Assembly (NCBI RefSeq): GCF_005887635.2
Contig: NZ_CP040818.1
Span: 921,001 to 985,000 of the forward strand
Direction: 5' to 3'
DNA: 64,000 bases
Source: Paroceanicella profunda
GTDB lineage: Bacteria > Pseudomonadota > Alphaproteobacteria > Rhodobacterales > Rhodobacteraceae
In this document: positions 28,434 through 52,331 of the stretch, one piece after another
How the letters are laid out: each line of letters begins with the position of its first letter
Numbering within the stretch: position 1 is the stretch's first letter
Notes under the pieces: model-generated
The model's input: only the letters and a program-made list of their open reading frames with translations
Databases searched by the model: none
Told to the model about the DNA's origin: nothing
Position numbers and translations under genes: made by a program

Positions 28434-29225
28434 TCATGATGGGGTCAACATTGGCGTCTCCTTCCTCTTTTTTTTCGCGGTCTCGGAGCTGGCCTTGAAG
28501 CGATAACTGTCGTTTCCGGTTTCCAGGATGTGGCAGCGGTGTGTGAGGCGATCGAGGAGCGCCGTGGTCATCTTGGCGTCACCGAAGACGCTGGCCCATT
28601 CGCTGAAGCTTAGGTTCGTGGTGATCACGACGCTGGTGCGTTCGTAAAGTTTGCTGAGGAGGTGGAACAGCAAGGCGCCGCCCGAGGCGCTGAACGGCAG
28701 GTATCCGAGCTCGTCGAGGATCACCAATTCGGTTTTCACCAACGCCTCGGCGATTTTCCCGGCCCTTCCCAGCGCCTTTTCCTGTTCCAGCGCGTTCACC
28801 AGCTCGACTGTGGAGAAGAAGCGCACGCGTTTGCGGTGATGCTCAATCGCCTGGACTCCGAGGGCGGTCGCCACATGGCTTTTCCCGGTGCCGGGCCCGC
28901 CAATCAGGACCACGTTTTCGGCAGCATCGAGGAACTCGCATCGATGAAGCTGCCGAACGAGGGCCTCGTTGACCTCGCTGGCCGCGAAGTCGAAGCCTGA
29001 CAGGTCCTTGTGGGCCGGGAAGCGCGCTGCCTTCATGTGATAAAAGATGGACCGCACTTCACGTTCGGCCATTTCAGCCTTCAGCAGCTGGGACAGGATC
29101 GGGATCGCCGCATCGAACGCAGGCGCGCCCTGTTCCATGAGGTCATGCACGGCTTGGGCCATGCCTGGCATCTTCAGACTGCGGAGCATGATGACGATGG
29201 CAGCTCCGGCGGGATCATGACGCAT
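28434..29225 (-). CDS. istB: IS21-family helper ATPase IstB
   Basis: 263 residues from the ATG at 29225, overlapping the istA 3' end by 11 nt; an upstream in-frame ATG exists but lies deeper in istA. DnaC-like AAA+ ATPase with Walker A GGPGTGKS, Walker [12 protein letters not shown], and [13 protein letters not shown]. It works with IstA to select the target. The C terminus is lysine-rich (ETAKKKRKE). Appears intact. Confidence 0.93.
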
Positions 29226-30744
29226 GGCGTTTGCCTCCGGATGTGCGCAGCCCATCGTAGCGTGCAACATTGGCCTCGGGCTCCTTGCTCAGCGTCAAGG
29301 CCGGAGGCGGCGTTACGTCTGGCAACTCGACTGAAGTGCCGTTCACCAGCCTGTGCAATAGGTTCAGCACGTGGGTCTTTGTCGGCACGCCGGCCTTCAA
29401 CGCCATGTCCACCGCGCACAGGACCGCCTGTTCGTCGTGATGCAATACCAACGACAGGACGTCGACCATCTCCCGATCACCGCCGGGTCTGCGCAGCATC
29501 TGATCCTGCAGCTCACGAAAGCCCCTCGGCATCTCAACAAACGGGGCGCCGTTACGCAGCGCACCGGGCTTGCGCTGGATCACGGCCAGGTAATGCCGCC
29601 AGTCATAGATGACGCGGCCCGGTTGCCGATGCGACCTTTCAATGATGCGCTGGTGCTCGCAGACGACATGCCCTTCAGCAACGACAACCAGCCTTTCGGG
29701 GTAGATGTGCAGGCTGACTGGCCGGTTCGCAAAGCTGGCAGGCACGGAGTAGCGATTGCGATCAAACGTGACGAGGCAGGTTGGGGACACCCGCTTGCTT
29801 TGCTCGACATAACCGTCGAACGCGGTGGGCAACGGCATCAGCGAGGGCTTCTCCGCTTGCCAGACGTCTGCGATGCTGCCGGGCAAACCGCCATGTGCGG
29901 TTTCGGCCCACAGCGCCTTGCACCGTTCTTCCAGCCAGCAGTTCAGCGCATCGAGATCAGGGAAGGTGGGCATCACCTGCCACATCCTGCTGCGCGCATC
30001 GCGGACGTTCTTCTCGACCTGGCCCTTTTCCCATCCCGCCGCCGGATTGCAAAAGTCGGGTTCGAACACGTAGTGGCTGGTTATCGCCATGAAGCGCGCA
30101 TTTACATCGCGCTTTTTGCCGACGCCCACGCGGTCCACCGCCGTGCGCATATTGTCGTAGATCCCGCGGCCCGGCACGCCTTCGAAGATTCTGAACGCAT
30201 GCCAATGCGCGTCGAACAGCATCTCGTGTGTCTGCAGCAAATATGCCCTGACCAGGAACACGCGGCTGTGCGACAGCTTGATGTGTGCGACCTGCAGCTT
30301 GGTCCGTTCACCCCCGACGATCGCGTAGTCTTCGCTCCAATCGAATTGGAAGGCCTCGCCCGGCTTGAACACCAGAGGCACGAATGTCCCGCGATCCGTC
30401 GTGTTCTGCGCGCGCTGCCGGTCCGATTTCCAGGCTCGGACAAAGGCTGAGACCCGCTCGTAGGACCCATCGAACCCCAGCTGAACCAGATCCGCGTGCA
30501 TCTGTTTCGCCGTCCGCCGCTCTTTGCGCGATTTGCGCTGTTCGGCCAGCAACCAGCCCGACAGCTTCTCCGCGTACGGGTCGAGCTTGCTCGGCCTCGA
30601 TGGTGCCTTGAACTTGGGCTCGACGATCCCGGCACGCAGGTAACGCCTGATCGTATTTCGGGACAGTCCAGTCCGCCGCGAAATCTCGCGGATGGGCATC
30701 TTGTCCCGCAGTGCCCACCGTCGAATGACGCTCAAAAAATCCAT
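29215..30744 (-). CDS. istA: IS21-family transposase IstA
   Basis: About 509 residues from the ATG at 30744 ([10 protein letters not shown]); the frame extends 9 codons further. N-terminal HTH ([21 protein letters not shown]), then the rve integrase core with the first catalytic Asp in FQFDWSEDY, the second in [12 protein letters not shown] and the Glu in [11 protein letters not shown], then the C-terminal Mu-transposase-like beta domain ([17 protein letters not shown]). All catalytic residues are present, so the element may be active. Confidence 0.94.
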
Positions 30745-30828
30745 GTCGATCACTCCAATGACCCCCGACAAATCTCGTCAGGGGGAGGGTTCCACATGGG
30801 TCAATTCTCAGTGACATTTCCTATCGCT

Positions 30829-30856
30829 GCTGGGTCAGTTCTCAGTGACATCCAAC
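30829..30856. repeat. IS21-family element, right terminal inverted repeat
   Basis: Exact reverse complement of 28363-28390. It is followed by AGCTTGACC, which itself mirrors the left flank (GGTCAAGCT versus GCTCAAGCG), so similarity extends beyond the recognised IS end. Confidence 0.8.
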
Positions 30857-32029
30857 AGCTTGACCACAAAATCTGTTGCTGCATTGGTTTCAACAAACTC
30901 AATATGCCAAGGGGTTCAAGTTCCGATACTTTGGCCGCTTCTCTTTCAAACGGGAAGCAGTATCACTTTTGCGCATACCAGCTTTAAGTGGTCAAATCTG
31001 GCAAGTCACAATGCGGGTGTGACAGTTGTAATCGTTGCGATCAGCAATCAAGCCGACAAAACGCCTACCATTTACACGCTAGAGGACGGGGCGACCGTAG
31101 CGAATTCGGTTGAGAATATTTCATCATATCTGGTGCCAGGAAAAGCGATAAATATCAAGCCAGCGAGAAGTTCGATTTCTGGCTGTGCTTACATGGATCT
31201 TGGCAATATGCCCAAAGATGGAGGCCATCTTCTGATGACTGCGTCGGAAGCTGAGCTTGTCTCGAAATCTGACCCTGTGGCCGAAAAGTATTTGTTCGAC
31301 TTTGTTGGTTCACAAGAATTCGTCAAGGGCATCGTCCGCCGATGCCTTTGGATAGAGGATGATCAAGTTTCTGACGCCTTAACCTCACCTGAAATCTCAA
31401 AGCGGCTTGATGGCGTTAAGGAAATGCGTTTGGCCAGCGATGCAGAATCTACTCGCGCATTTGCCGATCGACCGCATAGGTTCAAACAGATTCAAGGTCG
31501 AGGGACTGACAAGACAATAGTCGTACCGAAGGTAACGTCGGAAAATCGAGTTTACCTTCCGGTAGGTCTCCTGTCTAAGCATTCTATAGTTTCGGATAAC
31601 GCGTTTGCTTTGTACGACGCGCCAATATGGAACATGGCGCTTATCGCCTCTAGGGTGCATTGGGTCTGGGTTTCAACCGTCTGCGGGCAGCTTGAGACGC
31701 GCATCCGCTACTCAAATACACTTGGATGGCATACGTTCCCCGTTCCCAAGTTGACCGAGAAGAACAAGGAAGATTTGACCCACTGCGCCGAGGACATCCT
31801 GTTGGCGCGCGAGGCGCATTTTCCCGCCACCATCGCCGACCTCTATGACCCCGAGAAAATGCCGGACGATCTGCGCGCAGCGCATGATCGCAACGACGAG
31901 GTTCTGGAGCGCATCTATATCGGCCGCCGCTTCAAGAACGATACCGAGCGCCTGGAAAAGCTTTTTGAGCTCTACACCAAGATGACTTCCACAAAGGGTG
32001 CTGCAGGTAGAATAGCAGGTGCCTCGTGA
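30851..32029 (+). pseudogene. C-terminal half of an MmeI-like (type IIL) restriction-methylase, truncated by the IS21 element
   Basis: About 390 codons open directly out of the IS21 right end. The sequence matches the target-recognition and C-terminal helical regions of MmeI-like enzymes: VSTNSICQGVQVPILWP, FAHTSFKWSNLASHNAGV, then WNMALIASRVHWVWVSTVCG, and at the end ADLYDPEKMPDDLRAAHD with LEKLFELYTKM. The N-terminal PD-(D/E)xK nuclease and the SAM-binding/NPPY methylase motifs are absent, so it cannot methylate or cut. The recognition part (to about 31720) is AT-rich while the tail is GC-rich. The end overlaps the next gene by 4 nt. Confidence 0.85.
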
Positions 32030-33204
32030 GTGAGTCCCCAAACTACGCTCAAGGTGGCGATGCGCAGGCGATCAGAAGGATCGCAAACGACTACTATGGC
32101 GGGTACGCCGAGATGTTCGCTGCGCATGGCTGGCCTGAACGCGGCAACAAGTTGATGCCATCGGTCCAAGCGCGCGTCGTTGACACCTACGGCAGCGTTC
32201 GAGCCTTCGAGGAAGCGCACAAGGAAAGCGATTTGATGTTTCCGATGGAAGCCATCAAGTCCGACCCGCCCAATGTCTGGCTCACCAGTTTCTATGGCTT
32301 CAAACCCGAAGAATGGGGCTTTCTCGGATTTGCCGACGAAAGCAGGAGGCAGGGCTTCATCAACGGTAGTAAGCCAGGCGTTCTCGTCGTGATCTATGGG
32401 GCGGGAGAAGCCTCGAAAGACGAGCTCTACAAAGTCATTGGCGTTCAGCAATGCTCTCACAAGATCGGCAATGCCGAACAGTTTATGTTCCCACCCGCAT
32501 GGGATGCCAAGGAGAAAGACCCCCACCGCGCGGGCCGCTGGAACTACGGGGTCAAGGCAACGCGGGCTTGGCGCGTTACGCCCGAAACTCGCATGAATGT
32601 GCTCGATTTTGCGCCCGAAGCGACGAAGTCGAAAGCTTGGCAGCACATAGGTTCGCGCGGCGTTCCCCTGTCGCAGGCAGAGGCCGCCAACATACTCAAA
32701 CTGGATTTGCAGGAAGTCGATGTTTATGGCCAGAACCCTATTATCGGTTCGCTGGCCGGAACTGCACAGGAGATTCTCGCTCCAAGCAAGGCGGGACCCG
32801 TTTCGCAAAACTCGTTTGTCACCCGAGAGTCCGAAGGACCCAAGCATCTCTACATTCTCGCATTGCAGGGCGATACAGATGCTTTTCTGGGTAGGCCTGC
32901 GAATGGCCAGATTATCGTGAAGGCCGGCTTCTCCAAGTCGCCACAGACACGATGCGCCGATCACAACAAAGCCATTCCGAAGTGTGCTTTCCGATGGGAA
33001 GTCCTGCATTCCGGACCGAAATACGGCATCAACCCATATCCAAGCTCTGATCACGCGAAGAGCGGGGAACGTGCCATGCAGAAGATTTTATGCCAAAAAC
33101 CAAAAGGTTGTTCTCTAGGCGGCGAGTTCTTCCTCGCCGAATCTGGGCTCGTGCAAGAAGCATGGGACAAGGGCAACCACGCAGCGAAAGTGTTTAAGAA
33201 ATGA
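32026..33204 (+). CDS. EVE-like domain plus GIY-YIG-like protein
   Basis: 392 residues; GTG start overlapping the methylase remnant. Residues about 75-235 (VWLTSFYGFKPEEWGFLGF to a W-rich RAWRVTPETR block) have the pattern of a PUA-like EVE domain, which in other systems reads modified bases. Residues about 275-385 (HLYILALQ, VKAGFSKSPQTRCADHN, AFRWEVL, and Glu in GGEFFLAESG) resemble GIY-YIG nucleases of the T5orf172 group. Together they suggest a modification-sensing nuclease working with the helicase that overlaps it. Domain calls are by eye. Confidence 0.6.
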   Translation: MSESPNYAQGGDAQAIRRIANDYYGGYAEMFAAHGWPERGNKLMPSVQARVVDTYGSVRAFEEAHKESDLMFPMEAIKSDPPNVWLTSFYGFKPEEWGFLGFADESRRQGFINGSKPGVLVVIYGAGEASKDELYKVIGVQQCSHKIGNAEQFMFPPAWDAKEKDPHRAGRWNYGVKATRAWRVTPETRMNVLDFAPEATKSKAWQHIGSRGVPLSQAEAANILKLDLQEVDVYGQNPIIGSLAGTAQEILAPSKAGPVSQNSFVTRESEGPKHLYILALQGDTDAFLGRPANGQIIVKAGFSKSPQTRCADHNKAIPKCAFRWEVLHSGPKYGINPYPSSDHAKSGERAMQKILCQKPKGCSLGGEFFLAESGLVQEAWDKGNHAAKVFKK

Positions 33205-35252
33205 GTACCAAGTCTGTCCCCTCCGTTTCCGTCACCTATTCCCGAAACGGAAGCTCCACCAAGTCGAACGAGCTCGGCATGCGGCCCATGCAGGAACGCG
33301 CGTATGAGAAACGGGGTGAGCAGTACCTTTTAATCAAGTCGCCGCCTGCCTCCGGCAAGAGCCGCGCGCTTATGTTCATCGCGCTCGACAAGCTGCACAA
33401 TCAGGGGCTCAAGCAGGCCATCATCGTCGTGCCCGAGAAATCCATCGGATCGAGCTTTCATGACGAGCCGCTGAGCAAGTTCGGGTTCTGGGCTGACTGG
33501 ACGGTTTCGCCGAAGTGGAACCTATGCAACGCGCCTGGCAGCGAGGGCGGCAAGGTCAACTCGGTTAAGGCCTTCCTTGACGGCGACGACCGCGTGCTGG
33601 TCTGCACCCATGCGACCTTCCGTTTTGCCGTGGACAAGTTCGGGATTGAGGCATTCGATGATCGGCTGATTGCAGTGGACGAGTTCCACCATGTTTCGGT
33701 GAACCCCGACAACAAGCTGGGCGCGCATCTGGCCGACTTCATCGCGCGCGACAAGGTGCACATCGTCGCCATGACGGGATCGTATTTCAGGGGCGATGCC
33801 GAGCCCGTCATGATGCCGCATGACGAGGCGAAATTCGATACCGTCACCTATACCTACTATGAACAACTCAACGGCTATAAGTACCTGAAGCAGCTCGACA
33901 TCGGCTATTTCTTCTACTCGGGCGCCTATGCTGACGACATCCTAAAGGTTCTGGATGCAGGCCAGAAGACCATCGTGCACATCCCGAACGTGAACGCGCG
34001 CGAGAGCACGAAGGACAAGCACCGCGAGGTCGAGCACATCATTGATGCCCTGGGCGATTGGCAGGGCTCCGATCCTGCGACCGGCTTCCAGCTTGTGAAG
34101 ACGGCGGACGGCAAGGTGCTGCGTATCGCCGATCTGGTGGATGATGAACCAGCCAAGCGGGACAAGGTATCGGCCGCCTTGAAAGACCCCGCCCAGAAGA
34201 ATAACCGCGATCACGTCGACATCATCATCGCCCTTGGCATGGCCAAGGAAGGGTTTGACTGGATTTGGTGCGAGCACGCCTTGACCGTGGGCTACCGCGC
34301 CAGCCTGACGGAAATCGTGCAGATCATCGGCCGCGCCACGCGCGATGCCGAAGGAAAAACCCGTGCCCGCTTCACCAACCTGATCGCCGAGCCCGATGCC
34401 TCAGAGGAAGCTGTAACCGAGGCCGTGAACGATACCCTCAAGGCCATCGCAGCCAGCCTCCTGATGGAGCAGGTGCTCGCCCCTCGGTTCAACTTCGCAC
34501 CCAAGAAACCCGACAGCGGGCCGGTGGAAGGCTTCGACTACGGCGAAGGCGGCTACAAGGAAGGCGAATGCAATGTCGGCTTCAACGAGGAAAGCGGGCA
34601 GTTCCAAATCGAGATCAAAGGACTGGTGGAGCCCAAGAGCAAGGAAGCTGCACGCATCTGCCAGCAAGACCTGAACGAAGTGATTGCTGCGTTCGCGCAG
34701 GACAAAACCAACATCGAGCGCGGTCTCTTCGATGAAGAGCTTGTTCCCGAAGAGCTAACCCAGGTCCGCATGGGCAAAATCGTCAAGGACAAGTATCCCG
34801 AGCTCGATGAAGAAGACCAGGAAGCCGTGCGCCAACACGCGATTGCTGCGCTCAATCTGACGCAAAAGGCCAAGGAGATTGCTCTCGGCAACGATAATGA
34901 TGATGTCGCCAGCGCAAACACCGCGCTAATCGACGGCGTGCGAAAGTTCGCCATGGACGTGCGCGAACTCGACATCGACCTGATCGACAGGATTAATCCG
35001 TTCAGCGAGGCATATGCGATCCTTGCCAAGACAATGAGCGAAGAAAGCCTCAAGCAAGTTGCTGCCGTTATCTCGGCCAAGCGCGTACAACTCACGCCGG
35101 ACGAAGCACGAGACCTGGCGAAGCGAGCCCTGAAATTCAAACAAGAACGCGGGCGCTTGCCGTCGATCACTTCACCCGACGCATGGGAAAAGAAGATGGC
35201 CGAGGGCGTTGCCTTTCTGGCCCGTATGAAGGCGGAGGCCGCAAATGGCTAA
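33201..35252 (+). CDS. SF2 DEAD/DEAH-box helicase
   Basis: 683 residues, start overlapping the previous stop by 4 nt. Helicase motifs in order: motif I SPPASGKSRA (about 46-55), motif II VDEFHH (about 157-162), motif III MTGSYFRG, and motif VI QIIGRATRD (about 373-381). The C-terminal 280 residues are acidic and helical, with a KSKEAARICQQDL region and no recognised nuclease. Such helicases are the translocating subunit of restriction-like systems. Stop overlaps the next gene by 8 nt. Confidence 0.88.
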   Translation: MSTKSVPSVSVTYSRNGSSTKSNELGMRPMQERAYEKRGEQYLLIKSPPASGKSRALMFIALDKLHNQGLKQAIIVVPEKSIGSSFHDEPLSKFGFWADWTVSPKWNLCNAPGSEGGKVNSVKAFLDGDDRVLVCTHATFRFAVDKFGIEAFDDRLIAVDEFHHVSVNPDNKLGAHLADFIARDKVHIVAMTGSYFRGDAEPVMMPHDEAKFDTVTYTYYEQLNGYKYLKQLDIGYFFYSGAYADDILKVLDAGQKTIVHIPNVNARESTKDKHREVEHIIDALGDWQGSDPATGFQLVKTADGKVLRIADLVDDEPAKRDKVSAALKDPAQKNNRDHVDIIIALGMAKEGFDWIWCEHALTVGYRASLTEIVQIIGRATRDAEGKTRARFTNLIAEPDASEEAVTEAVNDTLKAIAASLLMEQVLAPRFNFAPKKPDSGPVEGFDYGEGGYKEGECNVGFNEESGQFQIEIKGLVEPKSKEAARICQQDLNEVIAAFAQDKTNIERGLFDEELVPEELTQVRMGKIVKDKYPELDEEDQEAVRQHAIAALNLTQKAKEIALGNDNDDVASANTALIDGVRKFAMDVRELDIDLIDRINPFSEAYAILAKTMSEESLKQVAAVISAKRVQLTPDEARDLAKRALKFKQERGRLPSITSPDAWEKKMAEGVAFLARMKAEAANG

Positions 35253-36453
35253 GCAGTTTACCGATGACGATGATGCATTGCTTGCCGAGCTTGGCGTCGA
35301 GGTAGAGGACAAAAAGGCTTCCAGCCGCACCCCTCGCGAAGAACGCATTATCGCGGGCTTCGAGGAAATCCAGCGGTTCGTCGACGAGCATGGTCACGCT
35401 CCTCGTCATGGGGAGAGCCGTGATATTTTCGAGCGCATCTACGCGGTTCGGTTGGAGCGCATGCGTGAGCTGGATGAGTGCCGTACACTTCTGGAGCCGA
35501 TGGATCGGCAAGGACTTATTGCAGGAAGCGAGGATCTGGCAGCCGAGCCCGCTGATGATCTGGACGATGACGCGTTGCTCGCCGAACTTGGCGTTGAAGT
35601 GCAGACATCGGAGCTTACGCAACTCCGCCATGTCAGGCCAAGCGCCGAGAAGAAGGCTGCCGAGGAAGTTGCGAACCGCCAGAGGTGCGAGGATTTCAGC
35701 AAGTTCAAGCCGCTCTTCGAGCAAATCCAGAAGGAGCTTGATGCGGGGATACGCGAAACGCGCCCCTTCGAAATGAAAGCCGAGATCGAGACAAGCCGCT
35801 TCTTCATTGTCGGCGGACAAAAAGCCTACGTCGCCGAGAAGGGCGAAGTCATTACGACCGAACACGGGCGGACGGATGCCAGGCTTCGTGTGATCTTTGA
35901 CAACGGCACCGAGAGCAACATGCTCATGCGCTCGCTACAGCGCGCCCTGAACAAGGATGATGCCGGACGCCGGATTACCGAGCCCACTGCCGGTCCGCTC
36001 TTCACCGATCAGACCATTGATGGTGATGAGGCCAGCGGGACGATCTACGTGCTGCGCAGCAAATCCGACTTGCCTCTTGTCGCCGAAAACCGCGATCTGG
36101 TGCACAAAATCGGCGTCACCAATATGAGCGTCGAAAAACGCATTGCGGGCGCGCACCTTCAACCGACGTTTCTTATGGCGAACGTCGACGTGGTCGCGAC
36201 CTACGAACTTTACAACATAAACCGCACCAAGCTCGAAAACCTGATCCATCGCATCTTTGCCCCTGCAAAGCTCGACATCGAAATCAAAGATAGGTTCGGC
36301 AATCCTGTTGTTCCGCGCGAATGGTTTCTTGTGCCCCTCTACGCCATTGATGAGGTTGTAGAGAGGATCAAAGACGGGACAATCAAGGAATATCAATATG
36401 ATCCGAATTCGGCCACGCTTGTTTCGCGAGCGCAGAAGAATGCGACGAAGTGA
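35245..36453 (+). CDS. GIY-YIG nuclease family protein (MUG113/T5orf172 type)
   Basis: 402 residues. N-terminal half contains a repeated acidic motif DDDALLAELGVEV (at about 8-20 and again near 110-122). The C-terminal domain (about 265-375) starts GTIYVLRSKSD and has HKIGVTNMSVEKRIAGA, YELYNINRTKLENLIHRIF and a terminal PREWFLVPL with the metal-binding Glu; this is the GIY-YIG fold. It probably supplies a nuclease to the helicase module. It overlaps the helicase gene by 8 nt. Confidence 0.82.
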   Translation: MAKQFTDDDDALLAELGVEVEDKKASSRTPREERIIAGFEEIQRFVDEHGHAPRHGESRDIFERIYAVRLERMRELDECRTLLEPMDRQGLIAGSEDLAAEPADDLDDDALLAELGVEVQTSELTQLRHVRPSAEKKAAEEVANRQRCEDFSKFKPLFEQIQKELDAGIRETRPFEMKAEIETSRFFIVGGQKAYVAEKGEVITTEHGRTDARLRVIFDNGTESNMLMRSLQRALNKDDAGRRITEPTAGPLFTDQTIDGDEASGTIYVLRSKSDLPLVAENRDLVHKIGVTNMSVEKRIAGAHLQPTFLMANVDVVATYELYNINRTKLENLIHRIFAPAKLDIEIKDRFGNPVVPREWFLVPLYAIDEVVERIKDGTIKEYQYDPNSATLVSRAQKNATK

Positions 36454-36523: not shown

Positions 36524-38161
36524 ATGCTGACTGTAGAACAAGAGCATTTCCGCAGAGCGGCATTGGAAATCGGTCAGAGCGGCGAAAACGACACGCTCCC
36601 CTATGATGTAGATGCGGGCTTCATTCGCGACAAAGCCGATGAACTATCAGAGATATGTATTCGGCTCTTCCAAAGCGTTAATGCAAAATCCGTGAAGGAT
36701 GCAGCGGGCTTTATGAACGAGCTGACGATCGGTTCAGAACGTCTCTTGGTTCCTGCAGGTTCTCACGGCTTTCGCATCACCACGAAGATTCATCCTTTCT
36801 GGAACCTCTACCTCAACGGCCTCGGTTTCGCGATTGCGGAAGCCAACGAACCAAATCGCAGCGACCGCGCGCACTCCTATAGGCTGAGTGCCGACGGAGA
36901 GTCCCTGTTTGACAAAGGCCGGTCTTGGAGAAGTTACAAAGAAGCAACCATTCAAGAGCCCGCTCTAGAACGGGAGGGCTGCGTAGTCGTTCAGACGGAC
37001 ATCTCTAGTTTCTACGAACATATCTATCATCACAGACTAGAGAACGTCGTCAATGACCTGGCTCCCGCGAATTCAACCGTTGCCGTTCAAATAGACCGAA
37101 TTCTTAGCAAGCTGGCATCAGGGAGGTCATTCGGATTGCCCGTTGGGGGGCAGTGCGCGCGCGTGCTTGCTGAAGCTATGATGACCCCAATAGATATCTC
37201 GCTCTCTGATGCGGGTATCGTCTGGCATCGCTTTGTCGATGACTTCACATTGGTCTGCAACTCTCAGCAAGAAGCGTACGCGGCTCTTTCCACACTTTCG
37301 AATTCTCTTGCGGACTACGGGCTTTCGCTAAATCGGACCAAGACGACCACCCTAAGTGCGAAGCATTACAAAGAATACATCGGCGTGCAGCTCGGACAGG
37401 GTGATGAAACAACAATCGCCCTACGCGAGCTTGATCTCCATTTTGACCCTTATTCAGATGCCGCTCAAGCTCAAGCCCAGTACGAGCAGCTAAAGAAATC
37501 TTTTGACGCCATAGATATTCAGTTTCTCTTGGACCTTGAGAAGGAAAAATCGCAACCCGATGCCTTCGTGATGGCTCAGATCGGCAGGGCATTGAAGTTT
37601 CAAGAGCCGCAAGTTGCTGCGCAGCTATGCGCCACGCTGCTGGACCCGAGCAATTTAGACTCGTTCCGAGCCTCTTGGTCGAAGATTCTTCGAGGCGTCT
37701 ACGCAGTCCGGGCCAATGAAGAGTTCGAAGGCGTATTCGGGCAAATTGATGATTTGCTGGATAGAATCCCCGCTGCAACGCCTCACCTTTTGATGCCTGA
37801 AGCGAATATTCTGCACTACCTCCGCGCCATTCGCTTTAGACGGACAGAAGTCAGGGGAACTTTTGTCAGGCGAACATATGACCAGAGCTCATCCAGTTCG
37901 GTTCGACGTGCTTGTATCGACTGCTGGAGACACTGGCGCGACCGGGCAAGTTTTACGCGGCTGATAAACCTGTGGCAGAACCTAAACCCTGATGAGCAAA
38001 GGATGCTATGGTTGGCGGCCGGGAATTTCGGCGACGATGGAACCCATGCCAGGAGCCAGCTACGCAGGTCGTTGGAAGGATCATGGCGACTAGGTTTCGA
38101 AGATAACAATGGCGAGACGTTTGCAACCTGCTATCAGAGTTGGGTGGCGAACAATGGCTAA
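36524..38161 (+). CDS. Reverse transcriptase, UG/Abi (defence-associated) type
   Basis: 545 residues, ATG with GGAGAG upstream. RT motifs: first catalytic Asp in VVQTDISSFYEHIY (about 155-168), GLPVGGQCARVLAEAMM (about 205-222), and the catalytic pair in WHRFVDDFTLVC (about 233-244), then LNRTKTTTLS. The C-terminal 270 residues are helical without maturase, endonuclease or CRISPR-Cas domains. That excludes group II introns and fits unknown-group/Abi RTs (DRT), which act in phage defence. The next gene overlaps it by 8 nt and encodes a nuclease-like protein. The subtype cannot be assigned by eye. Confidence 0.85.
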   Translation: MLTVEQEHFRRAALEIGQSGENDTLPYDVDAGFIRDKADELSEICIRLFQSVNAKSVKDAAGFMNELTIGSERLLVPAGSHGFRITTKIHPFWNLYLNGLGFAIAEANEPNRSDRAHSYRLSADGESLFDKGRSWRSYKEATIQEPALEREGCVVVQTDISSFYEHIYHHRLENVVNDLAPANSTVAVQIDRILSKLASGRSFGLPVGGQCARVLAEAMMTPIDISLSDAGIVWHRFVDDFTLVCNSQQEAYAALSTLSNSLADYGLSLNRTKTTTLSAKHYKEYIGVQLGQGDETTIALRELDLHFDPYSDAAQAQAQYEQLKKSFDAIDIQFLLDLEKEKSQPDAFVMAQIGRALKFQEPQVAAQLCATLLDPSNLDSFRASWSKILRGVYAVRANEEFEGVFGQIDDLLDRIPAATPHLLMPEANILHYLRAIRFRRTEVRGTFVRRTYDQSSSSSVRRACIDCWRHWRDRASFTRLINLWQNLNPDEQRMLWLAAGNFGDDGTHARSQLRRSLEGSWRLGFEDNNGETFATCYQSWVANNG

Positions 38162-38903
38162 GAGGCTTCCGTTTCGCGACCCGAGAACTGTTGCGCGGGA
38201 CATTCCTGGTGTTCTGGATATTCTCTTTCCGCGCTTGACTGGCGGCCTTGTCGGCGCTCTCAACAAGAGCATGTTTTCATTTCAGGGTATTGAAGCGCTT
38301 TCTGATGAACTTGTCGACGAAAGCCAACTCCACAAGGCGATGCTGTTCGAGCTTTCGATGGCGAGGGCAGAAAGGCTCTTGCAGGATGACGATGCGCCAA
38401 GTTGGGACGATGTCCTTCGCGTTGCTGTGGAGCGCCAGCGACAACATTTTGATGCCAAGATACCTGACGAGATTGTCCAGCACGACAAGGAATTGGCCAC
38501 TCATGCGGCGAGCAATTTGGTCGCCATGTTGCGTAGCGCTCAGGAACAGCATCCTGATGTTACACTCTCCATTGCCCCGCCGATACCAGGTCTAGGATGG
38601 ATAGCGTCTGGCACTGGGGATTTTGAGCTGGGAACAATCCTCATAGAAGTGAAGCACACTGACCGAAACTTCATGGCAAGGGATTTTCGGCAAGTCTTGA
38701 TGTATTGGCTCTTGAAATACTCCGCGACGATAGAGCGTGGCGAGGATATCTGGACGGATTGCCTGTTCCTCAACCCGAGGCGCAATTCCGGGTTGCTATT
38801 TAATTTTGATAAGGTCCTGCACTCGGCTTCAGCGAGCTCAAACCGTGTTGAGTTGCTTGAGCTACTTCGTTCTGTTGTTGGCGACGAGTTTGCTCGCCGC
38901 TAA
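38154..38903 (+). CDS. PD-(D/E)xK nuclease-like partner of the reverse transcriptase
   Basis: 249 residues from the ATG at 38154 inside the RT 3' end. N-terminal 150 residues are helical. The nuclease core has Asp156 in GTGDFELG, Glu165-x-Lys167 in ILIEVKHT and Gln180 in RDFRQVLMYWLL, the order expected for restriction-endonuclease folds. A following strand region includes WTDCLFLNPRRN. Overlap implies stoichiometric expression with the RT. Full-length family not recognised. Confidence 0.7.
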   Translation: MAKRLPFRDPRTVARDIPGVLDILFPRLTGGLVGALNKSMFSFQGIEALSDELVDESQLHKAMLFELSMARAERLLQDDDAPSWDDVLRVAVERQRQHFDAKIPDEIVQHDKELATHAASNLVAMLRSAQEQHPDVTLSIAPPIPGLGWIASGTGDFELGTILIEVKHTDRNFMARDFRQVLMYWLLKYSATIERGEDIWTDCLFLNPRRNSGLLFNFDKVLHSASASSNRVELLELLRSVVGDEFARR

Positions 38904-39272: not shown

Positions 39273-40184
39273 ATGAAACAGGATATTTACCAGAAAGTAA
39301 CCGACAAGATTATTGCCGATCTGGAGCAAGGGCAGCTGACTTGGCTGAAGCCTTGGAGCGCTGGCAACATGGAAGGGCGGATCATGAAGCCCCTGCGGCA
39401 TAACGGCATGCCCTATAGCGGCATCAATGTTCTGATGCTTTGGGGCGCGGCCGTCGAGGGCGGTCATCTCTCGCCGTTCTGGATGACCTTCAAGCAGGCC
39501 AAGGAACTCGGCGCGCATGTGAAGAAGGGCGAGCGCGGCAATCAGGTGGTCTATGCCAACACCCTGACCAAGCTTGATGAGAAGGACGACGGATCAGAGG
39601 AAGAGCGGAAAATCCCCTACCTCAAGCAATATACCGTCTTCAATGTCGAGCAGATCGAAGGCTTGCCCGAACACTACTACGCCAAGCCCGAGCCCATAAT
39701 TGATCCCGCGCAGCGGATCGAGCATGCGGATGCGTTCTTCACCAGCACAGGCGCAGACATCCGCCATGGCGGGAACAGCGCGCACTATAGCGGCGGGAGT
39801 GATCATGTGCAGATGCCGGTGTTTGAGTCTTTCCGCAGCCCCGAGGCCTACTACGCAACCCTTGCCCATGAACTGACCCACTGGACCAAGCACAAAAGCC
39901 GCCTTGACCGCGAGTTTGGGCGCAAGGTCTGGGGCGATGAAGGCTATGCCAAAGAGGAATTGGTGGCAGAGCTGGGCGCAGCATTCCTTTGCGCCGATCT
40001 GTCCCTGACGCCCGAGCCCGGCACTGACCACGCCGCCTACATTCAGAGCTGGCTCAAAGTCCTGAAAGACGACAAGCGGACGATCTTCGCCGCTGCCGCT
40101 CATGCGCAGCGCGCGGCCGACTACCTGCACGGCCTGCAGCCCCTTATCGAAGTCGAGCCCCAGCAAGCAGGAGCCGCCGCGTAG
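39273..40184 (+). CDS. ardC: ArdC-family antirestriction protein
   Basis: 303 residues. N-terminal ssDNA-binding domain (about 1-130): IYQKVTDKIIADLEQG, WLKPWSAGN, YSGINVLMLW, FMTFKQA-type motif and a VKKGERG block. C-terminal zincin-like metallopeptidase domain with HELTHW at about residues 199-204 and a downstream EELVAELGAAFL supplying the third zinc ligand. ArdC protects incoming single-stranded DNA from restriction during conjugation. Fits an early-expressed gene of a mobilisable element. Confidence 0.94.
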   Translation: MKQDIYQKVTDKIIADLEQGQLTWLKPWSAGNMEGRIMKPLRHNGMPYSGINVLMLWGAAVEGGHLSPFWMTFKQAKELGAHVKKGERGNQVVYANTLTKLDEKDDGSEEERKIPYLKQYTVFNVEQIEGLPEHYYAKPEPIIDPAQRIEHADAFFTSTGADIRHGGNSAHYSGGSDHVQMPVFESFRSPEAYYATLAHELTHWTKHKSRLDREFGRKVWGDEGYAKEELVAELGAAFLCADLSLTPEPGTDHAAYIQSWLKVLKDDKRTIFAAAAHAQRAADYLHGLQPLIEVEPQQAGAAA

Positions 40185-40350: not shown

Positions 40351-41571
40351 ATGACCTATTTTGTACCGCAGACCCTCGAAGATATCCTAGAGATGCAAGA
40401 GCGAGGCGATTCCGAGAACGCCACACTTGAGTTCAAGTCATGCCGTCTTTTTGCGCAGAAAAATGAAAAGATCTTCGAAACTCTCTCACGGGAGATCACG
40501 GCATTTTCTAACAGCATTGGCGGTGTCCTTATCATCGGTGTCGAGGAGGACACTGATAGACGGATTTCCGAAATTGTACCCATTACAGATAGCAAAAAGC
40601 ACGAGGCTTGGATCGAAGACGGTCTTCTCTCCCGAATCACGCCAAGCCTGCATTTGACAATTGCAAGAATCGAGGTTGACGAGGGGCATCTGCTCGTCAT
40701 CAACGTGCCGCCTTCGAGGGCCGCGCCACATCAATCCGCCGACAAGCGATTCTATGCGCGTCGTCTGTTCCGCGTCGACCCGTTGCTTTCATTTGAAGTT
40801 GACGATATTCGGAGACGCGCCGCAGCCATGGCTGGCGGTGCAAATCTTTCAGTCCTCTTCCAGGGTGGCGCAATATCATTCGCCATTGAAAATGAAGGGC
40901 TGGAGGCGATCTTTGATGTCTGGATTGACGTTAAAGGCATTGAAAACAGCGACATTGCAAAGGTGTGGACCCCTGGGCTGGGCCGTCCCTATACAGAGCC
41001 CTTCCGCATTATTCACCCGGGTGAACGGCGAAATTTCCTCGGTGCTGGCTTTGATTTCTTCGAAGAGCAACTCGATGATCGTATGGATGTCACCCTTAAC
41101 TATACGGACGACGAAAATGTAGTGCACGGCATAACTTATACCTACTATCTGAAGGATTTTCACAGCACCGCCCGCTTGAGGACGCCACACGAAGAATTGC
41201 TCGATCAGGGAATTAAGAAGCTTGAAAAATTGGAGCGCGCACTTTCTGATCTTGCACGGGATATTCGCGAAATTCGGGAATGTGCGTTTCATCCAACCGG
41301 CTTGAACCTTTCCAAGACTACACTGTCTGTTCTTGCAGGCGAGGAAGGTGTGAAGTGGCCAGGCGAGGCTCTGACTTTTCAGGCGCTGGCTGAATTACTT
41401 GAGGTGGACTTCGAGACGGCGATCAAGATTCAGCAAGAAATTTTTGGAGCGACGAAATATGTTGGCGGAAAGAATACGCCTTTAGGTGATGCTAAGTTGC
41501 CAGAACAGGTAAAGGAGAAAATCCTACAGCAACTCGCTCTTCCTCCAGAAAGTCTGAATTCGAAGAAGTGA
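40351..41571 (+). CDS. AlbA_2/Schlafen-type ATP-binding domain protein
   Basis: 406 residues. Residues about 15-155 match the AlbA_2 (Schlafen core) domain: NATLEFKSCRLF, ISAFSNS-type stretch in EITAFSNSIGGVLIIGVEED, and a LLVINVPPS strand, followed by the family's DKRFYARR motif. The middle is beta-rich (about 165-275) and the C terminus has a coiled-coil segment (about 290-320). Such proteins act as regulators, RNA/DNA-binding factors or defence components. AT-richer than the ICE core, with its own AT-rich promoter region upstream (40270-40345). Confidence 0.8.
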   Translation: MTYFVPQTLEDILEMQERGDSENATLEFKSCRLFAQKNEKIFETLSREITAFSNSIGGVLIIGVEEDTDRRISEIVPITDSKKHEAWIEDGLLSRITPSLHLTIARIEVDEGHLLVINVPPSRAAPHQSADKRFYARRLFRVDPLLSFEVDDIRRRAAAMAGGANLSVLFQGGAISFAIENEGLEAIFDVWIDVKGIENSDIAKVWTPGLGRPYTEPFRIIHPGERRNFLGAGFDFFEEQLDDRMDVTLNYTDDENVVHGITYTYYLKDFHSTARLRTPHEELLDQGIKKLEKLERALSDLARDIREIRECAFHPTGLNLSKTTLSVLAGEEGVKWPGEALTFQALAELLEVDFETAIKIQQEIFGATKYVGGKNTPLGDAKLPEQVKEKILQQLALPPESLNSKK

Positions 41572-45734: not shown

Positions 45735-46901
45735 TCATTGCGAGCGTCCCGCGGTGGGCGGCGCGCCGATACCCGTGTCGGAGACTGGTCCGTGCGGATA
45801 CTCGGGGCTGTGCGAATGCGTGGCCTGATCGCCAGACGCGACGCCGGTGAACCCCTCGCTGCCGTAGAATGCCCGGTGGAGCCCCCAATAGCTGCCCATG
45901 AACACGGCGACGGCCATCGCCAGACCCGCCGGTATCGCGGGAACCGCGGATTTGAAGCGTGGCAGAAGGCGTGTCTGGCGGCAGCGATCGGCCACAACGG
46001 CGACGAGGACGGCCATGATCAGGCCGTGCCCGATGAGATCGATACGCCCGAATGGCCAGACCGCCGCAGTGAAGATGACAATCAGGGCAGCGGCTGACAG
46101 CCTTCGGATCAGCGGGGTCCACAGCAGGCCGAACCCCATCGTGAATTCGGCAACCCCTGCCATCGGAATGAAGACGTCGCGTGGCATCCCGAAGGTGAGG
46201 AACGGCTTCTCCAGAACCAGCGGGTAGAACCAGCCCGGAAATGCGAACTTCTCCAGGCTCGACCACATGAGGGCGACCGCGAGACCCCACCGCAGGACCT
46301 CGAATCGATGGGACCGCCAAGCCTCGTTCTTCGAGGGTTCGAGGACAAGGTAGCCGGCAACACCGAGGCCAAGCGCCAGATAGTCGAACAGGTGAAACAG
46401 GTCGTAGTCTCTGAGGGCCAGAACCCAGAGAAGGATGATCCCGGCGCCCGCGAGCGGCATCGTCCGGCGGAAGAAGATGCAGCCGGCGATGAGAAGCTGC
46501 AGCCACGATACCCATTCCGCGGGCGTCTTCAGATCCGGCGTCAGATACACTCCGCCCACCGAGAAGATGGCCACGAAGAAGGCGCCGACGGTGACGCGCA
46601 CATAGTCATCGAGCCTGTGCCCCACAGGTGCCGAAAGCCGGTCGAGCCCGGCATGAATGCCGCTTCCGGAACGGCTCGCTTCGATCAGCCGGGCGGCCAC
46701 GAAGAAGAGCGCGGCAAGAAGGATCCCGGCCCAGAACCATGGATCCGCCATCACGCTTGCGATCGGCTGCGGGCTGGCTCCGACGATGTAGGGCGCGAAC
46801 CATTTGACATGGGCGGAGGCGGACGTGACGGCTCCCAGGGTTCCGAGAAGGAAACTGGCCGCCAGTATTTCCCTTCGTTGCCTGTGTCGGTCCCTGCACA
46901 T
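45735..46901 (-). CDS. Multi-pass membrane protein, DoxX-like C-terminal part
   Basis: 388 residues. Begins with a signal-like segment ending in SASAHVKWF, then about nine to ten hydrophobic helices. The second half has the DoxX-like pattern (SSLEKFAFPGWFYPL, then FTMGFGLLWTPLIRRLSA). The C terminus is His/Pro-rich (HSHSPEYPHG), possibly metal binding. No operon partners nearby. The precise role is unknown; DoxX-like proteins are linked to redox or sulfur/quinone functions. Confidence 0.75.
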   Translation of the reverse strand: MCRDRHRQRREILAASFLLGTLGAVTSASAHVKWFAPYIVGASPQPIASVMADPWFWAGILLAALFFVAARLIEASRSGSGIHAGLDRLSAPVGHRLDDYVRVTVGAFFVAIFSVGGVYLTPDLKTPAEWVSWLQLLIAGCIFFRRTMPLAGAGIILLWVLALRDYDLFHLFDYLALGLGVAGYLVLEPSKNEAWRSHRFEVLRWGLAVALMWSSLEKFAFPGWFYPLVLEKPFLTFGMPRDVFIPMAGVAEFTMGFGLLWTPLIRRLSAAALIVIFTAAVWPFGRIDLIGHGLIMAVLVAVVADRCRQTRLLPRFKSAVPAIPAGLAMAVAVFMGSYWGLHRAFYGSEGFTGVASGDQATHSHSPEYPHGPVSDTGIGAPPTAGRSQ

Positions 46902-47184
46902 TGGATAGTTCCTTCCTGTTGCCTGCAGTATCAGCCCGGCTGAACCGCGCGGTGATATCGGGATGCAGGGTGATTCAGCGACAGGTGCGGAGCGAAGTCT
47001 TGTCGCGCCGGCTCGAAAGCGTTCCGGATGTCCGTAACGGGCGCGCCGGCGGTTGTGGCGGAGGCGAAAATCGGTTCATCTGCCGCGTCGGCCAAGGCTG
47101 AACGGGCTTGCGTGGGACAGGTCTCCACCGCGAGTCCTGCCGGGGGGACGCGGGCTTCAGGCCGGGCGATGCCCGCGCAGGTCG

Positions 47185-48039
47185 TCAGGCCATCGGCAAG
47201 CGCGCCTCGATCCAGTCCCGGATGTCGGCCATAACCTCCTCCTTGCCCAGGTCACTCAGGAGATCGTGGTAATGGCCGTCATAGAGCCTGAGCGACTTGT
47301 CGGTCGATCCGGCAGTCTCGTGGAAGAACCGGCTCCCGCTCGGCCTGGTGGCTTTGTCGGCCGTCCCGTGAAGGATGAGGACAGGCAGGGTGATGAGCGG
47401 AAACTCACGCTTCAGCCGCTCGTCGGCCCGTATCAGCGATGCCACGGTTTGACACGGCTGGGATTCACCGGCGATCAGCGGGTCGTCGTTCAACGCCTTG
47501 ACGACCTCCGGGTCTCGCGAGAAATCCGCGTTCCTGAGCCGCAGGACACGCGCATGGGGCGCGATGCGGCTGACGCCCTTGATCACGGCCAGGGCGATGT
47601 CGGGCGCCGGCACCTGGAAGGCGAAGCTCTCGCAGATGAGGCCGGCGAGTTGCGATTGGTTCTCGAGCGCGTAGACGCAGGATGTCACGCCGCCGGCGCT
47701 GTGGCCGAGAAGATAGACCGGAAGACCCGGCTCCCGCACCCTGGCGAGCCGGATCAGGGCAGAGAGGTCGCTGACGTAATCGTCAATGCTCCCGGCGAAG
47801 AACCGGTCTCCTTCGGATCGACCGCGACCGCGCAGGTCAAGCGCGTAGACGGAGAGACCGGCGGCGACCATCTGCTCGGCGACCCAGGCGTATTGGCCGC
47901 TGTGCGAGTTGAGCCCGTGGCAGATGGCGAGGATCGCGCGCGGCGGGGTCGACGGGCGCCAGATGCGGGCGAAAATCTGCAGCCCGCCGCTGGTGATGTG
48001 GACCTCCTCGGGGGAAAGCCTGTCGGTGAGTCTGGTCAT
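47185..48039 (-). CDS. Alpha/beta hydrolase, monoacylglycerol lipase/lysophospholipase type
   Basis: 284 residues. Classical serine hydrolase fold of the Hydrolase_4 group: CHGLNSHSGQY (oxyanion hole), DLRGRGRSEG, nucleophile elbow GHSAGG (about residues 114-119), Asp in HGTADKATRP and His in LYDGHYHDLL. It probably hydrolyses monoacylglycerols or lysophospholipids in the cytosol. Monocistronic; divergent from the PAS kinase at 48256. Confidence 0.9.
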   Translation of the reverse strand: MTRLTDRLSPEEVHITSGGLQIFARIWRPSTPPRAILAICHGLNSHSGQYAWVAEQMVAAGLSVYALDLRGRGRSEGDRFFAGSIDDYVSDLSALIRLARVREPGLPVYLLGHSAGGVTSCVYALENQSQLAGLICESFAFQVPAPDIALAVIKGVSRIAPHARVLRLRNADFSRDPEVVKALNDDPLIAGESQPCQTVASLIRADERLKREFPLITLPVLILHGTADKATRPSGSRFFHETAGSTDKSLRLYDGHYHDLLSDLGKEEVMADIRDWIEARLPMA

Positions 48040-48255
48040 CGGAACCTCTGTTTCGTCGCTGATGCCGTTGCTTGACTTCTAGCGCGAAACATGGGGTTCT
48101 CGAATATAGGGAATGGGTTGCTTCACTTATACGAAAGTTTCCCTCCGGCCGCGGCGGAAGATCAAGAACAAGTCATTTCAGATACTCAGACGATGGATTG
48201 GTATGTGCCTGGGTGATTTTTGTTCGCGGGAGAGGACGGAGCTGAGGCATATCCC

Positions 48256-51237
48256 ATGACTGATCTGGATGATGGTCTTCCGGACCTCGTACCCGACAGC
48301 ATCGTCGCTCGCGCAATGGATGGGCGCGTACGCCACTGGAATGGCGGGGCGGAGCGCCTGTACGGGTGGCCGGCGCACGCTGTCCTCGGAAGGGACATCG
48401 ATGAGCTCGTGCGGTCTCGCCATCCGTTCGGCCTGGCCGCCATCATGGAAGCGCTCAAGACCGACGGACGCTGGGAAGGAGAGATTTTCAGGACGGCCGC
48501 CGATGGAAGGGAGCTGTGTGTCTCCGTCCGGGCGATGCTGCGACGCGGCGCGGACGGCAGCCCCCCGGAGATCATCGAATGGTCGCGCGATACGGCGCGC
48601 GCCAGCAAGTCGGAAATCGACGGGCACAGATACGAGAACATCTTCCACGCAATGGCCGTTTCGTTCTGGGAGCTGGATTTCTCGCGGGTGCGCAAGGCGA
48701 TCGGCGAGCTTGTGGCCTCGGGCGTGACCGACGTCGCGGGATACCTCAGGACCGACACCGATTTCATCGACGCCGCGATCGAACTGGTCTCGGTTGTCGA
48801 CGTGAACGACATGACGGCCGAGCTGTTCGCAGCCCCGCGCGACATCATCCTGTCGCAGCACATGGGCTGGGCCTGGCCGCCGGACAGCCGGCATGTCTTC
48901 GCGGAATCGCTGATCGCCGCGGCACGGCAGGAGGACAGCTACAGCACCGAAACCGTCGTGACGACATACGATGGCCGCCGGATGGACGTGCTCTTCACCG
49001 TCTGCTGGCCCACAGGCCACAAGGCCAAGGGAACCGTTCTCGTCGGCGTCATCGATATCAGCGAACGCAAGCGGGCAACGGCGGAACTGCGCAGGAGCGA
49101 GGAAAGGTATCGCCGCCTGTTTGAAGCGATGGCCGTCGGCTATCTCGAGGCCGACATGGACCGCGTCGACGACCTGCTGGACGATCTGAGGGCGGCCGGC
49201 GTCGAGGATCTTGTCGCGTACATCGACGCACATCCGGAGTTTGTGCGCCGGGCGATCGACGCCATTGTGCTGGTGGATGCCAACGAAATGGCGATCGACC
49301 TGTTCGAGGCTGGCTCTCGGGACAACGTGCTCGGCGCGCCGGGCAGGTTCATTCCCCCCGAAGGCGAATGGGCGTTTCGCGAAGCGTTCGTCAGCCGCTA
49401 TCACAAGCGGAAGCTCGGGCCGCTCGACCTGCAGTTCCGCACGTCTGAAGGAAAGCTGATCGATGTCCGGTTCACGACATGGACGACGCCTGACCGCCCG
49501 CGCGGCGAGAACGTGCTGATCAGCCTCCTCGACATCGGGGAACACAAGCGGGCCTATCGGGAACTGGAGGTCAGCGAGCACCGGTATCGCGACCTGTTCA
49601 ACCACATGCCGATCGCCCTGCTGCAACTCGACATGAGGCCGCTTTTCAGCCGGCTCGCGGCCTTGCGGGCGGACGGTATCGCCGATCTGGCTGCCCATGT
49701 CCGGGACAATCCCGATTTCGTGCAGGAGGCCCTGCACCTGCCCCGGATCGAGGACGCGAATGCCGAAGCGTTGCGTCTGTTCGAGGCCGGAAATGTCGAC
49801 GACATAAGGGGCCCGATCACGTGGGGGTGGAAGGAGAGCCCCGAGACCATCGGCCGGTCGCTTCAGGCCCGGCTGGCCGGCCGGCCATCCTATTCGGAAG
49901 AAACGCGCGTCAACACGCTCGCCGGCAATGTCACCGACGTGCTCTATGCCATGTCCTTTCCGGCGGCGCTCATGGATCGGGGGATCAATGTCGTCGGCTT
50001 CGTCGACATCAGCGAGCGGAAACGGGCCGACCGTGCCCTCGGCCAGAGCGAGCGCCGCTATCGGGACCTGTTCAACCACATGCCGATCGCGCTGTGGCAA
50101 TGCGATACGTCAGGGCTCACGGACATGCTGGCGCAACTGAAGGCGGCCGGCGTCACTGACCTCGGCTCCCATTTCGATGCGCATCCCGGGTTTCTGGCGC
50201 GCTGCCTGGATGTTGTGACCGTTCAGGAGGTCAACGACGCGACCGTCCGGCTGTGCGGCGGAACCGACCCGGCGGAATTTGCCGGAACGACGGCGGCGCG
50301 CTACTGGCACCGCAACCCCGGCCCGTTCCGCCGTTCGATGGAAGCACGCTGGGCGGGGAAGTCCGGGCATGGTGAGGAGACACGCATGCTCGCGCTCGAC
50401 GGCCGCGAGATCGACGTCGCCTTTTCCATTTCCTATCCGCCCGCCCTGCAGGAGCGCGGCATCACCGTCTTCGCCACGGTTGACATCCATGATCGCAAGC
50501 GCGCCGAGGAGCGGCTGCGCCGCGCCCAGGCGGACGTCTCGCACGCCGCCCGAGTCTCGACCCTGGGCGAGTTGACCGCCTCGATCGCGCATGAGGTCAA
50601 CCAGCCGCTTGCCGCGATCTCGGCCCTCGGCCAGGCCAGCCTGCGCTGGCTGGCGCGCGCCGAGCCGGACCTGCAGGAGGTCGCGGCCCTGGCGGGGCAG
50701 ATGGTGGCGGACGCCCGCCGGGCGAGCGACATCATCGCCCGCATTCGTGGCATGGCGCTCAAGCGCGACCCGGAACTGGCCCCCCTTCTCATCAACGAGG
50801 TGGTGGAGGAGGCGCTGCTGATCGTCCGCCACGAGAGCCAGTCGAAGGCCATCGACATCTCTGTCCGGCTGGGAAGCGATCTGCCGCTGATCCACGGGGA
50901 CAAGATCCAGCTCCAGCAGGTCGTCATCAATCTCGCGGTGAACGCCATCCAGGCCATGGCCTCGAACACTGCCAGGCCGCGCCGTCTCACCGTTTCCACC
51001 GGGCTGAGCGAGGATGGCAGCGTGACGGCGACGGTGTCCGATACCGGCCCGGGAATCGCGGCGACCGATATCGATGACCTGTTCACCGGCTTCTTCACCA
51101 CCAAGAAGGAGGGCATGGGCATGGGTCTGTCGATCTGCCGTTCGATCGTGCAGAGCCATGACGGAACGATCAGCGCCAGGAATGGCCCCGATGGCGCCTG
51201 CTTTGTCGTCCGCCTGCCCCCGGCCCTGCGGCAATGA
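48256..51237 (+). CDS. Multi-PAS sensor histidine kinase
   Basis: 993 residues from the ATG at 48256 (GAGG upstream); a TTG further upstream is less likely. An N-terminal PAS domain (about 10-120) is followed by four tandem sensory units of about 155-160 residues that each begin with a motif such as YRDLFNHMPIA and contain a HPEFV...DAN-type core and a DISERKRA-like PAC end. The kinase core has the H-box in ASIAHEVNQPLAAIS (His at about 778), then N, G1 and G2 boxes in the HATPase domain. No transmembrane helix, so a cytosolic sensor. The two response regulators at 51244-52331 face it. Confidence 0.92.
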   Translation: MTDLDDGLPDLVPDSIVARAMDGRVRHWNGGAERLYGWPAHAVLGRDIDELVRSRHPFGLAAIMEALKTDGRWEGEIFRTAADGRELCVSVRAMLRRGADGSPPEIIEWSRDTARASKSEIDGHRYENIFHAMAVSFWELDFSRVRKAIGELVASGVTDVAGYLRTDTDFIDAAIELVSVVDVNDMTAELFAAPRDIILSQHMGWAWPPDSRHVFAESLIAAARQEDSYSTETVVTTYDGRRMDVLFTVCWPTGHKAKGTVLVGVIDISERKRATAELRRSEERYRRLFEAMAVGYLEADMDRVDDLLDDLRAAGVEDLVAYIDAHPEFVRRAIDAIVLVDANEMAIDLFEAGSRDNVLGAPGRFIPPEGEWAFREAFVSRYHKRKLGPLDLQFRTSEGKLIDVRFTTWTTPDRPRGENVLISLLDIGEHKRAYRELEVSEHRYRDLFNHMPIALLQLDMRPLFSRLAALRADGIADLAAHVRDNPDFVQEALHLPRIEDANAEALRLFEAGNVDDIRGPITWGWKESPETIGRSLQARLAGRPSYSEETRVNTLAGNVTDVLYAMSFPAALMDRGINVVGFVDISERKRADRALGQSERRYRDLFNHMPIALWQCDTSGLTDMLAQLKAAGVTDLGSHFDAHPGFLARCLDVVTVQEVNDATVRLCGGTDPAEFAGTTAARYWHRNPGPFRRSMEARWAGKSGHGEETRMLALDGREIDVAFSISYPPALQERGITVFATVDIHDRKRAEERLRRAQADVSHAARVSTLGELTASIAHEVNQPLAAISALGQASLRWLARAEPDLQEVAALAGQMVADARRASDIIARIRGMALKRDPELAPLLINEVVEEALLIVRHESQSKAIDISVRLGSDLPLIHGDKIQLQQVVINLAVNAIQAMASNTARPRRLTVSTGLSEDGSVTATVSDTGPGIAATDIDDLFTGFFTTKKEGMGMGLSICRSIVQSHDGTISARNGPDGACFVVRLPPALRQ

Positions 51238-51243
51238 TCATGG

Positions 51244-51960: not shown

Positions 51961-52331
51961 TCCCCTTTACCCACGAATTCCCGGATCACCCTCACGAGTT
52001 CGTTCTCGTCGAATGGCTTCTCGAAATAGCTGGCAGCGCCTGCGGACATCGCGCGGTCGCGCAACGATCGATCCGGCAGGGCCGTCATCACGATCACCGG
52101 CAGCCCGGGCGACGCGATGCGCAGCCGCTTCTGGAGATCGAGGCCGCTCATGCCCGGCATCTGGATATCGGTCAGGACACAGTCCGGAACCGCCCCGGAT
52201 GGCTCCCCCAGAAATTCGTTCGCGCTTCCGAACGTCTGAACATCAAACCCCTCGACCCGCAGAAGGCTGGCGAGCCCTTTGCGGACACTTGCGTCATCAT
52301 CGATGATCGCGATCAGAGGAGAGTTCGGCAT
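51954..52331 (-). CDS. Single-domain response regulator (CheY/FixJ-N type)
   Basis: 125 residues, receiver only: IIDDDASVRKG, phospho-Asp in VLTDIQMPGMSG, switch residues VIVMTAL and Lys in YFEKPFDENE. It overlaps the LuxR-type regulator by 7 nt and is co-transcribed with it. It may modulate the phosphoflow from the PAS kinase as a phosphate sink or intermediate. Confidence 0.93.
   Translation of the reverse strand: MPNSPLIAIIDDDASVRKGLASLLRVEGFDVQTFGSANEFLGEPSGAVPDCVLTDIQMPGMSGLDLQKRLRIASPGLPVIVMTALPDRSLRDRAMSAGAASYFEKPFDENELVRVIREFVGKGEC

Follow-up and report, generated by a model that had tools for sequence, protein, structure and literature searches.

A DRT8-type reverse transcriptase and its overlapping RecB-like nuclease gene in Paroceanicella profunda

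Does a reverse transcriptase (RT) gene that overlaps a DNA nuclease gene form a new defence system, and how might the two enzymes work together? The question is raised by a locus in a 64,000-nt stretch of Paroceanicella profunda DNA (assembly GCF_005887635.2, contig NZ_CP040818.1, positions 921,001 to 985,000), hereafter the window. An original prediction, made from the letters alone, took the pair for a two-gene phage-defence system and considered it possibly novel. We find that the locus is almost certainly a DRT type 8 (DRT8) phage-defence system. Two 2026 papers state that DRT8 confers phage resistance; its mechanism is called "not yet established" in one (PMC13213688) and is described as unresolved in the other (PMC13314766), which is why the locus matters.

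Identity of the gene pair

The two genes lie on the same strand (window coordinates):
36524..38161, + strand, DRT8 RT gene, 545 aa
38154..38903, + strand, RT-associated PD-(D/E)xK nuclease gene, RecB-like, 249 aa with the ATG at 38154 as start
38154..38161, + strand, 8-nt overlap of the two genes, ATGGCTAA

Among the PADLOC models, the RT matches Drt8 best (PDLC03783, 2e-148, 494 bits), with RT_UG22 as the runner-up at 6e-29, and the partner protein matches RTasPDDEXK (PDLC03797) at 7e-71. These matches bear out what had been proposed from the sequence, a UG/Abi (DRT) RT beside a PD-(D/E)xK enzyme. The statement that at least one type of DRT comes with an additional gene was also right, as DRT8 is such a type, described with a PD-(D/E)XK domain (PMC12596737). 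As both proteins match known DRT8 models, the claim to novelty falls: the RT belongs to a known type that already includes the nuclease, we found no essential difference from it, and the pair is an ordinary member. Membership in DRT4 or DRT6 was rejected, as two genes are present here and the RT scores far below Drt8 on both models (82 bits on Drt4, 85 bits on Drt6). We take DRT8 to be UG7 in the Mestre 2022 scheme. In Pfam, the RT matches RVT_1 at 1e-16, and the host assembly has no other match to RVT_1 at E ≤ 0.001; no family scores above the cut-off for the nuclease protein.

The ATG at 38154 is our choice of nuclease start and agrees with the N-terminus of relatives, while the mechanical list of open reading frames (ORFs) begins the gene at an upstream ATG (38109, 264 aa). 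The 8-nt overlap first noticed in the letters is thus confirmed, and it likely couples translation of the two genes. A promoter and terminator scan gave sites no more numerous than in shuffled sequence.

Conservation of the pair

We scanned a genome collection of 84,980 species with an alignment of eight RT sequences, six paired and two solo (without the nuclease), and kept the best 79 of 160 confirmed relatives. Adding L002, L003, L007 to L010 and the window brought the loci examined to 86. The counts describe paired clades, since the scan retained the best-scoring relatives only.

A nuclease frame lies downstream of the RT in 80 of 81 testable loci. Five loci were excluded from this count since the DNA ends before the RT does (L069, L070, L072, L077 and L082, the frame being also broken in L072 and L082). 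The exception is L081, where the RT stops early and is followed by a transposase-like ORF, with no nuclease found. Removing these six loci and five more with a broken or interrupted RT frame leaves 75 intact pairs. The two genes overlap in 74 of them, most commonly by 11 nt (38 pairs, against 8 nt in the window copy) and by 4 nt in 14; these lengths are not independent observations, because the script picked the start codon nearest to an 8-nt overlap. L025 is the only pair without an overlap, and its nuclease frame is short.

By sequence distance, the RT and the nuclease diverge in step. Over 72 pairs (L025, L049 and L071 were excluded) the correlation of the distances is r = 0.97, and for the 62 nearest to the window it is r = 0.94; none of 2000 permutations was as high, in a statistic that ignores the common descent of the hosts. 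The nearest neighbour is the same for both proteins in 54 of the 72 pairs. That the two enzymes act together in defence is plausible.

A nuclease frame remains beside a broken or interrupted RT frame in five loci (L010, L031, L034, L063 and L066), and a short nuclease frame stands beside an intact RT in one (L025). With an RT gene more than twice the length of the nuclease gene, these copies are too few for a toxin–antitoxin argument. No RT–nuclease fusion was seen among the 120 matches listed of 1072, and in viral contigs a single pattern match was obtained, with no relative confirmed.

A census of neighbours collected 213 ORFs of at least 200 aa within 2.5 kb, and the nearest 110 minus the three largest, 107 in all, were tested. 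No PADLOC family occurred in more than two of them and no Pfam family in more than four (RVT_1). These 107 ORFs thus show no recurrent third partner of at least 200 aa. Several defence RTs stand side by side in three loci, with Abi-P2 RTs downstream of the DRT8 pair in L014 (8431-9933) and L018 (3291-4808), and a Drt1a RT in the same position in L007 (8467-12159).

RTs of the Drt8 model without the nuclease

Genome samples from the class (385) and the phylum (398) yielded RTs that score on the Drt8 model in nine distinct genomes, among them that of the window: six from the class at E up to 1e-40, and the own genome plus three from the phylum at E up to 1e-50. The nuclease adjoins the RT in only three of the nine (the own genome, G197 and G029). 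For the other six, stretches of 9-10 kb around the RT were searched with the nuclease profile, and no frame of at least 80 aa matched it at E up to 10. These six RTs still score 315-483 bits on the Drt8 model, a caveat to assigning DRT8 membership by the RT. The idea that the pair is conserved as a unit therefore holds for the closest relatives and not for the sampled Drt8-model RTs at large. Because six of nine genomes lack the nuclease, a match to the Drt8 model alone does not imply, and is no proof of, a DRT8 pair. With the RTasPDDEXK model, the class sample gave five matches, of which three are full-length and adjoin an RT and two are partial.

A quick tree placed the solo RTs and the plasmid copy L011 on one side with SH-aLRT 90; their branches are very long, and the tree did not show the paired rows as one clade. 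As the paired label needs two changes on this tree and the solo branches are long, we claim no direction of gain or loss.

In two loci, L098 (1984-5858) and L011 (2621-6533), a HerA-type (DUF87) ATPase gene lies directly upstream of a nuclease-less Drt8-like RT. The two ATPases are 85% identical and have, by eye, a hydrophobic N-terminus. The ATPase and the RT form a possible different two-gene variant.

Architecture of the RT

The RT was modelled with AlphaFold (pLDDT 86, 31 sequences), and its features are as follows:
residues to about 290, RT domain
residues about 295-321, poorly ordered stretch, pLDDT under 50 at 302-321
residues about 330-545, alpha-helical C-terminal domain, modelled helices between 347 and 543
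36995..37006, + strand, motif A, T158-D159-I160-S161
37232..37243, + strand, motif C, F237-V238-D239-D240
37451..37453, + strand, Y310 in DPYS

The catalytic positions reported as intact, TDIS and FVDD, are confirmed, with D159 in the former and D239-D240 in the latter, and the model also agrees with a helical C terminus. Both D239 and D240 are invariant in the 75 RTs of intact pairs, and D159 is kept in 74, the exception (L071) being cut upstream of this residue.

In the model, the RT has the class 1 UG/Abi build, an RT domain fused to a helical-repeat C-terminal domain. Foldseek ranked UG15/DRT4, DRT6 and Abi-P2 first, followed by AbiA and AbiK and then by group II RTs. In VIA-align, DRT6, DRT4/UG15, AbiA, AbiK and Abi-P2 aligned over 388-456 residues, full-length matches in the case of DRT4, DRT6 and AbiK, while group II intron, diversity-generating retroelement, DRT9 and DRT2 RTs aligned over just 228-292 residues; on Z alone, however, a group II RT (19.8) ties with DRT6 (20.4), and several group II RTs outrank DRT4. 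A sequence profile search likewise put Abi-P2 and UG15/DRT4 on top, with the caveat that Cas6-RT-Cas1 and group II RTs came ahead of AbiK. AbiK, Abi-P2 and AbiA have the RT and helical domains in common with DRT8, and to our knowledge they have no nuclease partner.

Class 1 UG/Abi RTs studied to date are described as synthesising DNA without a nucleic-acid template (PMC13275509). From these families, synthesis by the DRT8 RT would probably be template-free and protein-primed as well. Y310 may be the DNA-priming tyrosine. All 75 RTs of the intact pairs have it, it sits in the stretch with pLDDT under 50, and the priming tyrosine of AbiK is likewise described as located in a mobile loop, although AbiK is reported to prime from an N-terminal tyrosine. 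Other candidates are Y320, also in 75 of 75, and Y119 and Y164, present in all 73 full-length paired RTs. In seven solo RTs an aligned tyrosine was found at Y310 in seven, Y119 in seven, Y164 in six and Y320 in none, the rows of L096 and L099 being poorly aligned around position 310.

Search for a flanking non-coding RNA

A conserved cis-encoded non-coding RNA beside the RT is the hallmark of class 2 DRTs and retrons, and none was found by Rfam at the locus or in the 500-nt flanks. In the pairwise comparison of flanks, 73 of the 86 loci contributed an upstream stretch and 74 a downstream one. Matches reaching more than 25 nt into the flank occurred in 14 sequence pairs per side, mostly near relatives and some non-collinear, and the window was in none of them. 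No widely conserved flank was thus seen within 500 nt of the pair in these stretches, an RNA in the coding sequence or farther off lying outside this search. The matches upstream of L067 and L068, and those downstream of L015/L022, L015/L053 and L059 with L021 and L029, were rejected as homologous RNA because they lie at unlike distances from the gene. A crude caller put the closest upstream ORF no more than 100 nt away in 14 of 66 loci, and in L012 the RT start overlaps the preceding gene.

The nuclease and its possible role

The catalytic core of the partner lies at these positions:
38619..38705, + strand, nuclease core D156 (38619), E165 (38646), K167 (38652), Q180 (38691) and Y184 (38703)

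D156, E165-x-K167 and Q180 had been read correctly from the sequence, numbering included, and Y184 is added here. The RecB-like PD-(D/E)xK signature consists of the D, (D/E)xK and QxxxY motifs, and with Q180/Y184 it is complete in this protein. Each of the five residues is invariant in 75 of 75 intact pairs. The nuclease fold is nearest to RecB/Cas4/MGME1-type enzymes, with AdnA, AddA, MGME1 and ACE1 among the matches, so that the "DNA nuclease" first proposed can be sharpened to a RecB/Cas4/MGME1-like enzyme of predicted exonuclease type. The Fe-S nucleases of the Cas4/AddB/Dna2 type are marked by four conserved cysteines; this type was rejected, as cysteine occurs in at least 30% of the 75 rows at two columns only (54 and 39). 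Compared with RecB, AddAB, AdnAB, Cas4 and MGME1, which have the PD-(D/E)xK core with QxxxY and the fold in common with it, the DRT8 nuclease is a separate small protein without a helicase and without the four-cysteine set.

DRT4 is reported to make random single-stranded DNA that is removed by exonucleases until phage ORF55 shields its 3' end (PMC13213688, PMC13314766). DRT4 is a close structural relative, and the DRT8 operon has an exonuclease-type enzyme of its own. Taken together, this is most simply read as a nuclease working on the DNA that its own RT makes, a reading that by analogy we rate as an even call. The same balance applies to our overall explanation, in which protein-primed, untemplated synthesis of single-stranded DNA would be opposed or processed by the system's own exonuclease. 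The RT, probably acting as an oligomer, would make DNA without a nucleic-acid template from one of its own tyrosines, with Y310 as the best candidate. The partner exonuclease would act on the protein-linked single-stranded DNA and keep it short or remove it in healthy cells. Infection would tip the balance, for example when a protein of the phage protects DNA ends or blocks nucleases of the RecB type, and DNA would accumulate until the infected cell no longer supports the phage. The anatomy would narrow this mechanism to a few residues: Y310 (or Y320, Y119 or Y164) for priming, D239/D240 for synthesis and K167 for the nuclease.

Among the roles for the nuclease, we rank restraint of the RT product first, but hold it only tentatively. 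In a maturation role, the nuclease would free or trim the RT-linked DNA to its active form, and both activities would be needed. The gene overlap and the parallel divergence would fit such a role, and a RecB-like fold suits single-stranded ends, but DRT4 and the related DRT6 are presented as single-gene systems (PMC13213688), with no dedicated trimming enzyme, whereas DRT8 has its own RecB-like nuclease. We regard maturation as rather improbable.

The second-ranked role is that of an effector, which appears possible but doubtful. Here the DNA product of the RT, or its change on infection, would activate the nuclease, and phage or host DNA would be degraded, as in effector-coupled retrons. The invariant core residues are consistent with this. 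However, the nearest enzymes by fold, those of the RecB/Cas4/MGME1 type, are end-dependent, no such nuclease was found in the 9-10-kb stretches around six RTs that score on the same model, and no added sensor domain was recognised in the 249-aa protein. In favour, the nitrilase domain of DRT1 is described as a required effector (PMC13275509), and a review table that puts a PNP/SLOG effector (Cap17) under DRT8 supports an effector role in some systems (PMC10952713).

If restraint is its role, DRT8 might, speculatively, be a self-contained synthesis/degradation switch, in which a self-primed, template-free polymerase is paired with a RecB-type exonuclease that erases the product until an end-protecting or RecBCD-blocking phage protein intervenes. 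An exonuclease step for which DRT4 relies on the host would then be built into the operon, and DRT8 would guard the activity of RecB-type nucleases.

Genomic setting

The G+C content is 52% over the pair, compared with 64-68% in the outer window (1-20000 and 46000-64000). The surroundings include a replication initiator, a relaxase, a type IV secretion system coupling protein and a second relaxase. Low G+C together with these genes, IS21, ArdC and others indicates that the region is probably a mobile element carrying defence genes. The same conjugation genes, relaxases and ArdC in a low-G+C stretch could also mean that the pair serves the element itself, for instance in transfer or stability, and is not a defence of its own host. 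We consider this very improbable, as DRT8 is stated to confer phage resistance (PMC13213688, PMC13314766) and a partial restriction-methylation enzyme is encoded close by.

The RT gene is directly preceded by three overlapping genes (32026-36453), which encode a protein with a weak T5orf172 match, a 683-aa helicase of the DEAD/ResIII kind and a GIY-YIG-like protein (MUG113/T5orf172). They have weak PADLOC matches only and form a candidate defence operon. Before them, at 28437-32029, IS21 istB/istA directly precede a 394-aa C-terminal portion of a type IIG restriction-methylation enzyme of the MmeI kind, probably a disrupted system. A 1326-aa protein at 22517-26494 matches an nSTAND3 NTPase below threshold, has no match in PADLOC at E ≤ 0.001, and is possibly an uncharacterised STAND defence protein. 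On the other side of the RT, a Schlafen/AlbA_2 protein of 406 aa (40351-41571) adjoins ArdC (39273-40184), with the DRT8 pair to one side of them and a relaxase gene to the other.
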